From contig JACQIE010000040.1 of the NCBI GenBank assembly GCA_016198645.1, positions 1-10,846 on the forward strand: DNA of 10,846 bases, given 5' to 3'. The first letter of the stretch is position 1, and each line of letters begins with the position of its first letter. Below, piece by piece: positions 1-5,925 of this stretch. The notes under the pieces are model-generated. The model ran no database searches. It was not told the origin of the DNA and worked only from the letters and a program-made list of their open reading frames with translations. The stretch comes from Candidatus Aenigmatarchaeota archaeon. GTDB taxonomy: Archaea > Aenigmatarchaeota > Aenigmatarchaeia > GW2011-AR5. The translations under genes and the position numbers were made by a program.

Positions 1-365
1 ATATTATAAGGTATTCGAAGTTCTTTTGCGATTTCCGCTACTGTTAATTCTCTCTTTATAGCGTCATGTATCTTTGGGAGTAGCCACGAATGAGGTACAT
101 ATTCAGTGAATCCTACGGGATATGAATAATTCAATCTCCAATTTCTTATCGTAGTCACGGGTATTCCCGTTAATTCACTGACAGTCGTGAAGTGTTCATT
201 GCTATGCGCAAGATTCAACACATTCTCATAGTCTTCTCTGGCTTTGCACAAAAAGTTAGGATATTGGCCGCTTCTGCGCCAATATCCTGACGCGTTAGTG
301 GGCATGATAGTCATGCCCACGACTTTTTGTGCAAAGCCGTCTTCTCTGGTATACTTTCTTTTCAC
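1..365 (-). CDS. Helix-turn-helix protein, 3'-truncated by window edge, carrying an in-frame MITE insertion
   Basis: Read on the minus strand from a GTG at 365-363, the frame is open for 121 codons to the window edge. The first nine codons give VKRKYTRED (start read as Met). The next 33 codons (338-240) are encoded by a MITE-like insertion. The frame then resumes with RED, the duplicated target, and YENVLNLAHSNEH. Two helix-turn-helix-like stretches follow: one around FTTVSELTGIPVTTIRNWR, and a second around IKRELTVAEIAKELRIP near the edge. The product is probably DNA binding; its family and regulatory target are not recognised, and similar HTH pairs occur in regulators and in transposon or homing-endonuclease proteins. 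GTG is chosen because an in-frame TGA lies two codons upstream and a TATA-like box lies 20-27 nt upstream, fitting a leaderless transcript. Two ATG codons inside the insertion are alternative starts. The HTH part is convincing; whether the gene is still functional is uncertain. Confidence 0.6.
   Translation of the reverse strand, partial: MKRKYTREDGFAQKVVGMTIMPTNASGYWRRSGQYPNFLCKAREDYENVLNLAHSNEHFTTVSELTGIPVTTIRNWRLNYSYPVGFTEYVPHSWLLPKIHDAIKRELTVAEIAKELRIPYN
231..239. repeat. Target-site duplication, left copy
   Basis: GTCTTCTCT immediately left of the MITE-like element, identical to the copy at 339-347. The left flank could be read as 10 bp if the first G of the terminal repeat is counted. 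Confidence 0.75.
240..338. mobile_element. 99-bp MITE-like element with perfect 17-bp terminal inverted repeats
   Basis: The ends are exact inverted copies: GGCTTTGCACAAAAAGT at 240-256 and its reverse complement at 322-338. A 9-bp direct repeat (GTCTTCTCT) flanks the element immediately at 231-239 and 339-347, as expected for a target-site duplication. The interior is almost entirely two perfect hairpins: an 11-bp stem (258-268 with 278-288, 9-nt loop) and a 10-bp stem (298-307 with 311-320, TAG loop). It is too short to encode a transposase and no parent element is in the window, so it would be mobilised in trans. The ends starting GGCTTTG recall IS6-type termini, but IS6 elements usually make 8-bp duplications, so I do not assign a family. 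Its length is a multiple of three and it has no stop in the frame of the interrupted gene. Confidence 0.8.
339..347. repeat. Target-site duplication, right copy
   Basis: GTCTTCTCT immediately right of the MITE-like element, matching 231-239. On the minus strand this copy encodes the RED that ends the pre-insertion N-terminus of the HTH protein. Confidence 0.75.
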
Positions 366-384
366 ATTTCAAGATGCGACACAT

Positions 385-392
385 CTTATATA
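385..392 (-). promoter_or_regulatory. TATA-like box for the HTH gene
   Basis: The minus strand reads TATATAAG here, 20-27 nt upstream of the GTG at 365. This is the spacing expected of an archaeal TATA box when transcription starts at or next to the start codon. No Shine-Dalgarno sequence lies between, which supports a leaderless mRNA. Confidence 0.5.
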
Positions 393-510
393 CATCTTCA
401 CCAAGGTCGGAGAAAGTGAAAAGTGCGCCCACAAAACGCTTAAGTAATGTCTGAGCGTAGAAGAAGCGTGAGAACATGAGAGGCGAACGTCTTCACGGCG
501 GAATTGGTTC

Positions 511-531
511 ATCTCTGGCAAGAGCAGAGAT
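511..531. other. 7-bp perfect hairpin upstream of the AbrB-like gene
   Basis: ATCTCTG at 511-517 pairs with CAGAGAT at 525-531 around a 7-nt loop. It lies in the roughly 200-bp stretch (366-565) between the divergent HTH gene and the AbrB-like gene, where I see no convincing gene on the plus strand and no clear TATA box. It has no U-tract, so it is not a classic terminator. It could be an operator or leader structure, or chance. Confidence 0.3.
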
Positions 532-565
532 AGCGTAAGAAGGAGAGCCGCGCCTAGCTGTTTCT

Positions 566-789
566 ATGCAAAAATTGACGACAGGGGAAGAATCTATCTC
601 CCTAAAGGGCTACGCGGCAGAAGCATCGGGTTCGGTGTCGATGTCAGAAAACGGATAATCTACGTTCTTGAAGAAGGGCAATATTCCGCCGATTCGCGCG
701 GGCGTGTTTTCGTTCCAGCGGACATCAGGCGGAGCCTCGGCATTGCGCCCGGTTTTCTTGTTAAATTTGTCGGGAGGGGTCTGCGATGA
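566..789 (+). CDS. Tandem AbrB/SpoVT-like DNA-binding protein with apparent 1-nt frameshift at its start
   Basis: The frame ending at TGA 787-789 encodes two AbrB-like swapped-hairpin motifs: KIDDRGRIYLPKGLR, then DSRGRVFVPADIRRSLGI about 25 residues later. AbrB-type domains bind DNA as dimers; two in one chain could form an intramolecular unit, either as a regulator or as the antidote of a toxin pair. The good frame has no ATG, GTG or TTG between its upstream TGA and the first motif. The only ATG (566-568) is one base out of phase, followed by a run of five A (570-574). A sixth A would give MQKIDDRGRI, an ideal AbrB start and a 74-residue protein. So either a base was lost from the homopolymer (mutation or assembly error) or initiation is non-canonical. 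The stop overlaps the next ATG (786), suggesting translational coupling and that the gene belongs to the operon. Confidence 0.6.
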
Positions 790-4059: not shown

Positions 4060-4066
4060 AAGGTGA
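4060..4066 (+). promoter_or_regulatory. Shine-Dalgarno sequence AAGGTGA that decides the PIN-ATPase start
   Basis: AAGGTGA ends five bases before the ATG at 4072. The in-frame GTG at 4063-4065 lies inside this sequence and is therefore unlikely to be the initiator. Confidence 0.6.
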
Positions 4067-4071
4067 ATGTA

Positions 4072-5925
4072 ATGAAAAACAATAGGAATCGCGATACAGC
4101 GAAGAATGATACGGCGAAAAACGAAACGGCAAAGAAGCAGGGCAGGATAGTGCCGGATACGAGCGTGATTATTTCAGGCGTGCTTTCGATGTTGATAAAC
4201 AAAGGGGAGCTGAAGGACGCGGAAGTTATAATACCCGAGTTCGTTTTGGAAGAGCTGCGCTCTCAAGCGTCGCGCGGCCGGGAAATCGGTTTCAAAGGGT
4301 TGGAAGAACTCAAGCAGATACGCGTTCTTGAGCAGGAAAAAAAGCTCACCGTTGTCAGAACCGGCCGCCGCCAGACGATGGAAGAAATCCAGCTGGCAAA
4401 GTACGGCAGGATAGACGCGCTGATACTGGACGTGGCGCGGGAAGAGAAAGCGACCATTTACACGTCCGATTTGGTCCAATATACGGTGGCGCAGGCGGAA
4501 AACGTGGACGCGCGGTATTTCCCGCCTTACCAGAAGAAAGAAACCATACTTGCAAAAATGATGACGGACGATACCATGAGCCTCCATCTCAAGGAAGGAT
4601 GCGCGCCCACAGCGAAGCGCGGCATGCCGGGCAACTTTACGTTGATGAAAGTATCAGACGAAGAGCTTACGCCTAAGCGCATGGAAGCGATAATAAAAGA
4701 GATAATGGACGCGTGCCGATACGAAGACGGTTTTCTTGAGGAAGACAGCCACTCGGCTACCGTTGTTCAATTAGGGAATATGCGCATAGCCATAGCGCGC
4801 CCGCCTTTCTCGGACGGGATAGAGATTTCCGTAATCCGCCCCGTAGCCAAGCTCACGCTCGACGATTACAAGCTTTCGGCGAAACTCAAAAAGCGGCTGG
4901 AGGAAAAAGCCGAGGGAATAATAATATCCGGCCCGCCGGGCTCGGGGAAAAGCACCTTTGCCGCGTCGCTTGCGGAGTTCTACGAAAAGAAAGGCAAGAT
5001 AGTCAAGACCATGGAGTCGCCGCGGGATTTGCAAGTAAGCCCGTCAATAACGCAATATACGAAGTTAAAGGGCAGCTTTGAGAACACGGCTGATATGCTC
5101 CTGCTTGTGAGACCGGACTACACGGTCTTTGACGAAGTGAGAAAGACGTCCGACTTTAAAGTCTTCTCCGACATGCGGCTGGCAGGCATAGGTATGGTAG
5201 GCGTCGTTCACGCAACAGACCCCGTCAGCTCCGTCCAGCGTTTCATAGGACGCATAGAGATGGGCATGATACCGCACATAGCTGACACGATAATATATAT
5301 CAAAGCCGGTCTGGTCGAAAAAATATATACGCTCTCGCTCACTGTGAGAACGCCCACGGGCATGACCGAAGCGGACTTGGCACGACCTGTAGTTGACGTC
5401 CGCGACTTTGAAAGCGGCGCGCTTGAATACGAAATATACAGCTACGGCGAGGAGAACGTGATAATCCCGATAAAGAGCGAGCCCCTGTCGCCGCTGCGCG
5501 ATTTGGCAAAAAAGCAGATACTGGCGACGCTGCGCAAATACGACAAAGATGCCGATATTGAATTCGTCTCGGACAGCAGCATAATCGCCTACATGGACAA
5601 TGACGTAATAGCCAAAGTCATAGGCAAGGAAGGAAAGAACGTGAAAGAATTGGAGGAAGCGCTCGGCATTCACATCGAAGTCTCCCCGAAAGTGGAAACA
5701 ACAGGCAAGGAAGCCCGCTTCGTTTACGACGAAACCGGCGGTTACATTCTGCTGAACTTCAGCGAGCGCCTGCACGGGCGCGTCGCTAACTTTTACGTCA
5801 ACGGCGAATACCTGCTCTCCGCCACGATAGGCAAGGGCGGCTCTGTGCGCATATCCAAGGGAAGCGACACCGGGAAAGAGCTTCTAAAGGCTCTCATGAA
5901 CAGCAAGGTCGCCGCTTTCGTGTGA
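4072..5925 (+). CDS. PIN domain-ATPase-KH protein (PINA / COG1855 type)
   Basis: A 617-residue archaeal protein combining three modules. The PIN nuclease-like domain (about 25-150) has PDTSV with Asp29, acidic Glu60/Glu61, IDALILD (114-120) and TSD (131-133). The PilT/VirB11-like ATPase has Walker A GPPGSGKST (287-295), Walker B-like YTVFDEV (350-356) and GVVHATDP (377-384). A C-terminal KH domain has VIGKEGKNVKELEEALGIHI (516-535). The Sulfolobus member, PINA, is reported as a hexameric ATPase that works on Holliday junctions with the resolvase Hjc, so a role in recombination or replication-fork repair is likely. RNase activity of the PIN part is possible from family membership only. The N-terminus carries a short lysine-rich tandem repeat before the PIN domain. 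Monocistronic, with its own TATA-like box and Shine-Dalgarno sequence; tRNA-Arg follows about 50 bp downstream. Confidence 0.92.
   Translation: MKNNRNRDTAKNDTAKNETAKKQGRIVPDTSVIISGVLSMLINKGELKDAEVIIPEFVLEELRSQASRGREIGFKGLEELKQIRVLEQEKKLTVVRTGRRQTMEEIQLAKYGRIDALILDVAREEKATIYTSDLVQYTVAQAENVDARYFPPYQKKETILAKMMTDDTMSLHLKEGCAPTAKRGMPGNFTLMKVSDEELTPKRMEAIIKEIMDACRYEDGFLEEDSHSATVVQLGNMRIAIARPPFSDGIEISVIRPVAKLTLDDYKLSAKLKKRLEEKAEGIIISGPPGSGKSTFAASLAEFYEKKGKIVKTMESPRDLQVSPSITQYTKLKGSFENTADMLLLVRPDYTVFDEVRKTSDFKVFSDMRLAGIGMVGVVHATDPVSSVQRFIGRIEMGMIPHIADTIIYIKAGLVEKIYTLSLTVRTPTGMTEADLARPVVDVRDFESGALEYEIYSYGEENVIIPIKSEPLSPLRDLAKKQILATLRKYDKDADIEFVSDSSIIAYMDNDVIAKVIGKEGKNVKELEEALGIHIEVSPKVETTGKEARFVYDETGGYILLNFSERLHGRVANFYVNGEYLLSATIGKGGSVRISKGSDTGKELLKALMNSKVAAFV
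4093..4137 (+). repeat. Three 15-nt tandem repeats in the PIN-ATPase N-terminus
   Basis: Three consecutive 15-nt units encode DTAKN, DTAKN and ETAKK. The units differ at synonymous and near-synonymous positions (GAT ACA GCG AAG AAT, then GAT ACG GCG AAA AAC, then GAA ACG GCA AAG AAG). This suggests an older in-frame expansion of a flexible lysine-rich tail rather than a recent slip. Confidence 0.7.

Follow-up and report, generated by a model that had tools for sequence, protein, structure and literature searches.

The window, a stretch of 10,846 nucleotides, is contig C10 of a 655,388-base, 96-contig genome that is about 70% complete. At its left end lies an open reading frame on the minus strand for a putative helix-turn-helix (HTH) protein, and near the start of this frame sits a short palindromic element flanked by a direct repeat. 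Elsewhere in the window, a stop-to-stop frame at 472-789 (plus strand) holds two motifs, DDRGRIYLPKGLRG and DSRGRVFVPADIRR, which we take to be AbrB-like, with no ATG, GTG or TTG before the first of them, and the protein encoded at 4063-5925 (plus strand) has a KH domain as well as PIN and secretion-type ATPase domains. The features of the HTH locus are as follows.

3..365, minus strand: ORF of the putative HTH protein, 121 aa, GTG start at 365, running off the contig end with its 3' end open
3..230, minus strand: HTH-bearing part downstream of the element, with weak profile matches
231..239: target-site duplication, copy 1, GTCTTCTCT, read as RED in the ORF
240..338, minus strand taken as sense: 99-bp Y-shaped MITE, consisting of end repeat, arm A, linker, arm B and end repeat
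240..256, no strand: terminal inverted repeat GGCTTTGCACAAAAAGT, complementary to the other end at 17 of 17 positions
258..288, minus strand: hairpin arm B, from fold and covariation
289..297, minus strand: unpaired linker joining arms A and B, reading TAACGCGTC on this strand, from fold and alignment
298..320, minus strand: hairpin arm A (GTGGGCATG...CATGCCCAC), from fold and covariation
322..338, no strand: terminal inverted repeat, perfect complement of 240..256
339..347: target-site duplication, copy 2, GTCTTCTCT
386..392, minus strand: TATA-box-like TATATAA, 20 nt before GTG 365, read from the sequence

The element makes up residues 10-42 of the ORF, having entered after codon 9. A preliminary description of this DNA had stated that the 99-bp element and its 9-bp duplication add exactly 36 codons, and the perfect 17-bp ends with GTCTTCTCT on both sides agree with this: the insertion adds 99 + 9 = 108 bp without closing the HTH frame. 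Six-frame reading likewise confirmed that a single stop-free minus frame joins the two parts of the ORF, since of the three minus frames only frame 0, which is that of the ORF, is free of stops. One plus-strand frame of the element is open as well, and with two of six frames open, an open frame by itself is weak evidence; for the subtype found in the window, its chance was 1 in 3. The two in-frame ATGs that the description had placed inside the element lie at 314 and 305, both within arm A. When the 108 bp were removed computationally, the empty site joined as VKRKYTREDYENV, giving the plausible N-terminus that had been foreseen; HTH homologues that lack the insert would be expected to read MKRKYTREDYENV, and a predicted peptide of the ORF as it stands is FAQKVVGMTIMPTNASGYWR.

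A DNA search found 38 matching pieces across the same genome. We examined 23 places, 13 with both flanks and 10 cut by contig ends, a count that leaves out partial matches on contigs C85 and C74 and a weak match on C90. The 9-bp duplication was perfect in 8 of the 13 two-flank copies and matched at 8/9 positions in two, 7/9 in two and 6/9 in one; among seven copies in related genomes, three duplications were perfect, five matched at 8/9 or better and the remaining two at 5/9 and 4/9. End complementarity was 15-17 of 17 positions in 19 of the 21 measured copies (98-187 bp), and the two outliers, with 14 and 7 of 17, carry a one-base indel and lack one base at a contig edge, respectively. The family thus has what defines MITEs, being short and multicopy, with inverted ends, a target duplication and no internal transposase gene. 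The central claim of the preliminary description, that a MITE has inserted in frame in an HTH gene, is upheld by copy number, duplication and frame.

Six of the 13 own two-flank copies are 98-99 bp long, and the others measure 126, 127, 128, 155, 155, 182 and 187 bp. The longer forms have longer hairpin arms; only the 126-bp form among them gives a multiple of 3 together with the duplication. The ends occur as paired types with the same core at both ends of a copy (CACAA, CAATT, TGTAG or TTTAA), and these types are combined with a short or long arm A and a short, long or extra-long arm B. The open frame is not constant but varies between subtypes. In the own copies (e.g. L026, L025, L054, L023 and L030), arms and end types reassort as modules while each arm is still a hairpin, which suggests recombination or template switching between copies. 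At L013:118-140, another GGCTTTGCTGAAAAAT end-like sequence stands right after the presumed duplication of the copy on contig C36 and is perhaps a second element.

With a covariance model, we found the family in 6 of 156 genomes of the phylum, all six within the 19 genomes of the window's own taxonomic family; the search used stricter filters, and weak copies may be lost from this count. The relatives include 99-bp copies with quite different arms, and in one of these genomes (G006) there are forms of 128 and 131 bp. When named genomes were scanned for the pattern, 14 stretches and one viral stretch came up; by hand check, 7 of the 15 were Y elements, and the remaining eight were rejected as chance matches. 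The seven, in JACPJX01 (three) and JAGVVU01 (two), both titled Candidatus Aenigmatarchaeota, and in 'archaeon' JACPVU01 and archaeon GW2011_AR5, are the same copies as those in G016, G018, G013 and G015 and are not independent finds. According to the named records, the hosts are Aenigmatarchaeota.

A strand of the element folds as a Y, formed in the canonical 99-bp form by an end stem, two hairpins and a short linker. Compared with shuffled sequences, the fold had z scores of -10.0 to -13.0 in eight strands (five copies, three of them on both strands). Because of the 38 genome matches, the 9-bp duplications and a fold z of about -12 against shuffles, a chance origin of the element is unlikely. 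We counted pair changes first in a plain, sequence-only alignment of nine copies, in which 11 of 37 pairs showed two-sided changes and the covariation score was 0.276, compared with 0.097 for shuffled alignments and at most 0.087 with partners slid. In the same alignment, every change in the five variable core pairs of the end stem is two-sided, three other stem cells are unpaired, and arm B is paired in just 75.8% of cells. Of the five covariation measures, that of pair types showed no excess, 256 of 500 shuffles being as high. When 13 distinct copies were aligned by fitting them to the model, a procedure biased towards the structure, 462 of 476 cells were in Watson-Crick pairs and three in G-U pairs, with at least two Watson-Crick types in 21 of 37 pairs. 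In the family alignment, the linker of the window copy (289..297) resembles that of most other copies. If selection acted on an RNA fold alone, G-U pairs should be more frequent than these few, and we therefore lean to the view that the pairing is kept at the level of DNA.

The strong conserved fold, the many copies near gene starts and the terminator-like form of arm A with its T run on the plus strand could also be expected if the element were no transposon but a structured RNA or regulatory module of the host, multiplied through recombination. We consider this very improbable, given the 9-bp target duplications at most own sites, the GGCTTTG-type ends with like ends beside some IS5-like transposases, and the presence of the family in just 6 of 19 family genomes; furthermore, an Rfam scan of the window returned no family at the gathering threshold.

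As for a candidate mover, transposases of PF01609 were present in 8 of the 19 family genomes, and none was found in the window's own, 70% complete genome. For the two that were scanned (L076 and L078), the nearest NCBIfam model was transpos_IS5_2, with scores under its cut-off, and both matched a SWIM finger, the Pfam cut-off being passed by one of them and missed by the other. Six of 12 transposase loci hold an end of the form GGCTTTG-5-AAAGT at 11 or 12 of its 12 fixed positions. This end lies within about 40 bp of the 3' end of the gene at L074, L076 and L078, about 80 bp past the matched domain at L080 and about 1 kb away at L082; at L083 it is farther off and identical to the end in the window. 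No second transposon end was found at eight loci by end match, duplication or local alignment. PF13737 was detected in 0 of 19 family genomes, and the positive control was silent too. The IS903 group of the IS5 family has 18-bp ends, GGCTTTGTTGAATAAATC, and a 9-bp duplication, and the copy in GW2011_AR5 begins GGCTTTGTTGAAAAAGT. A link of the element family to IS5 is probable.

We looked at where the copies sit relative to genes. The copies in the window and on contig C32 were the sole clear in-frame N-terminal fusions (2 of 13 own two-flank copies), and 10 of the 13 seem to lie outside genes, so that in-frame insertion was rejected as a rule of the family. By our reading, eight of the 13 are followed 14-77 nt downstream by a likely gene start, as listed here.

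C36b: 40 nt
C88: 44 nt
C86: 14 nt
C50: 35 nt
C5: 52 nt
C24: 43 nt
C30: 45 nt
C25: 77 nt

Six of the eight are at 35-52 nt, where promoters would lie. Pfam supports six of the eight downstream genes; it gave no support for that of C30, and that of C24 was outside the scan. The C24 copy is also directly 3' of a stop codon, and those on C72 and C29 are downstream of genes. The copy on C95 breaks a possible 151-codon stop-to-stop ORF and counts neither way, because the downstream part of this ORF had no match in the 155 other genomes of the phylum. Further open frames (e.g. at C36b, at C30 and on the antisense strand of C32) were discounted, as they did not resemble genes. In a related genome, a copy (L050:1501-1598, G016) falls within the final codons of an ORF for a membrane protein, and this ORF ends inside the element as ...VLKRGFV instead of ...VLKRWI.

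The frequency of copies upstream of genes bears on how the window is read, since the element might have entered a 5' leader, with the HTH gene starting 3' of it at one of the candidate starts GTG 221 or TTG 218 and the frame open by luck. The eight upstream copies and the two open frames in six would agree with this, as would the C50 copy, through which a frame is open and yet the AAA gene has its own ATG 35 nt later. Against it, a start at 221 or 218 would probably cut the first HTH helix, and the part of the ORF before the insert joins plausibly to the part behind it. An in-frame TGA lies at 371-369, GTG 365 is the sole start between it and the element, and the TATA-like box is spaced for this GTG. 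A TATA box about 20 nt before the start codon has the spacing of a leaderless archaeal start, and that of TATATAA suggests a leaderless start at GTG 365. On balance, an insertion into a leader seems rather unlikely, though it is the strongest competitor of the translated fusion that we prefer. The mRNA of the gene is predicted to fold with about -60 kcal/mol near its 5' end, and so strong a fold could block translation.

The identity of the HTH gene is inferred from profile scans, in which its HTH part gave weak matches to HTH_23, MerR, ISL3-HTH and others, all under curated cut-offs. No convincing homologue was found in 40 related genomes or in the 155 other genomes of the phylum (156 including the own), nor in Pfam, NCBIfam, PHROGs or PDB sequences, and none in phages or viral contigs. 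The protein collection held none either, in searches that admitted relatives of about 67-212 aa and 47-149 aa and could miss a long full protein. A match in one genome (G012; E 0.004, 54% over 28 aa) was dropped as a homologue, as it sits in an Lrp-like ORF. The own genome had no overlapping contig that would extend the gene past the contig end, and a 19-base match on C1 was rejected as its continuation because it falls inside an unrelated ORF. The part 3' of the element had the best codon score of the six frames, yet one under the norm of the genome (-0.34 versus 0.33 ± 0.14 for 228-nt pieces of the genome's genes, which were cut from the same genes that trained the codon table). The low score and the lack of a homologue may mean that the gene is foreign, decaying or misread. 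With the ORF incomplete at the contig end, these two observations would also fit a relic or a non-gene, in which an in-frame insertion had no consequence. The 121 open codons, 76 of them downstream of the element and in the best-scoring frame, the weak HTH matches and the length windows of the protein searches speak against this possibility, which we regard as improbable.

The clearest case of a coding consequence lies outside the window. At G000:C32:4748-4846 (L035:1501-1599), a copy sits at the start of a gene for a CW_binding_2-type secreted protein, in the orientation opposite to that of the window copy and with another frame in use. On the gene strand, AAAAGGGAGCTGAT-AT is followed by the element, from GGCGTTG, and then by AGATGATACGAAAGCCGCATTT; the duplication reads AGCTGATAT in its first copy and AGATGATAC in its second. 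If the former is ancestral, the old start would have been GGGAG-CTGAT-ATG-AAA-GCC-GCA, leading into MKAAFLGFVALSLLISSGVAFA, a signal peptide, and the original ATG AAA GCC would now read ACG AAA GCC. The new ATG is formed by the upstream duplication copy and the first G of the element and stands behind GGGAG, which would be the ribosome-binding site of the old start. From there the reading frame crosses the element without a stop (MALHKKLGYWPLLRQYPDALVGMIVMPTTFCAKPDD-TKAAFLGF), a predicted peptide is LGYWPLLRQYPDALVGM, and the database-predicted protein of 664 aa begins at the junction ATG.

The C32 protein was matched in 12 of the 19 family genomes, its own included. The two genomes of the same genus had no match, and the closest comparison with an empty site was therefore across genera. 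At all nine inspected orthologous loci an ATG stands directly before the signal peptide, some loci having further upstream starts, and the element peptide was present at none of the nine. Nine further homologues, listed with E values of 1e-20 or better (best 7999 candidates scored), also lack the extension, and one protein (P0008) has an unrelated extension of 10 residues. These comparisons give good support to the view that at C32 the start codon comes from the insertion junction and that the element has become N-terminal coding sequence. The proposal in the preliminary description that such an element turns coding or supplies starts therefore holds as an idea at C32, with its new junction ATG and open frame. 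At the HTH locus, a coding role of the insertion is plausible rather than proven; the outcome is better shown at C32, with its junction start codon and the apparent loss of the old start.

We compared the Y elements with known systems. In a 2024 review (PMC10969869), as far as its excerpted text goes, in-frame fusions of intragenic MITEs are not unusual, the Rickettsia palindromic elements (RPEs) being the extreme case; RPEs are about 150 bp long, the peptide that they encode is conserved, and in R. conorii nearly half of them lie in ORFs. The same text lists archaeal MITEs from Sulfolobus, Halobacterium, Haloquadratum, Desulfurococcus and several other archaeal genomes. The Y elements resemble RPEs as short palindromic repeats in frame inside protein-coding genes (PMC10969869, excerpted text). 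They differ in that only 2 of 13 are clearly in frame, the frame varies by subtype, the hosts are archaeal, the duplications are 9 bp long and the Y has two arms; neither a conserved coding peptide nor frequent insertion into ORFs was found. With the Sulfolobus MITEs SMN1 and SM3A they share an archaeal host, a non-autonomous nature and dependence on an IS transposase, whereas these MITEs measure 320 and 164 bp, MITE interiors are described as lacking ORFs, and no Y architecture is described in the excerpted text (PMC3718332).

Prokaryotic MITEs derived from IS5 elements are like the Y elements in being short and multicopy, without a transposase gene, and in their GGCTTTG inverted ends and 9-bp duplication. 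The Y elements differ from them in their paired end variants and two kept hairpins, and no autonomous two-ended copy was found. Searches of the open-licence literature on MITEs, on DPANN/Aenigmarchaeota and on RPEs brought up no such element in titles and the opening lines of abstracts.

Taken together, we put at roughly 60% the probability that the window element is an IS5-like MITE whose insertion leaves the HTH gene translated with an N-terminal extension. The element would be one copy of a non-autonomous IS5-like MITE family of Aenigmatarchaeota, its 99 bp arranged as three palindromes, the end stem and two hairpin arms, in a Y. A transposase acting in trans probably moved it, leaving the 9-bp duplication, and it would have landed behind codon 9 of the HTH gene. 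Since the insertion amounts to 99 + 9 = 108 bp and a minus frame without stops runs through the element, the ORF remained open; RED in front of the first helix would have been restored by the duplication. Translation would most likely run from the leaderless GTG 365 through the element, or restart at ATG 314 or 305 inside it, and the protein would gain up to 36 N-terminal residues ahead of an intact HTH domain.

The family is best read as IS5-like MITEs of a Y-shaped variant, which now and then turn into N-terminal coding sequence in the manner of RPEs. A bolder view, which we hold doubtful, would make the Y elements a distinct class of archaeal mobile DNA, in whose three palindromes a process acting on DNA, such as fold-back copying or conversion between the ends, keeps G-U pairs to a minimum, whose end types and arm lengths reassort as modules and whose frame-neutral 108-bp insertions have repeatedly donated start codons and N-terminal coding sequence, as at the window and C32. 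The locus offers a testable archaeal case of mobile DNA turned protein, the start codon at C32 itself apparently coming from the insertion. It also introduces, from a DPANN lineage, a compact family of Y elements with end repeats that change in step, so that the upkeep of short perfect palindromes becomes testable by sequence comparison.
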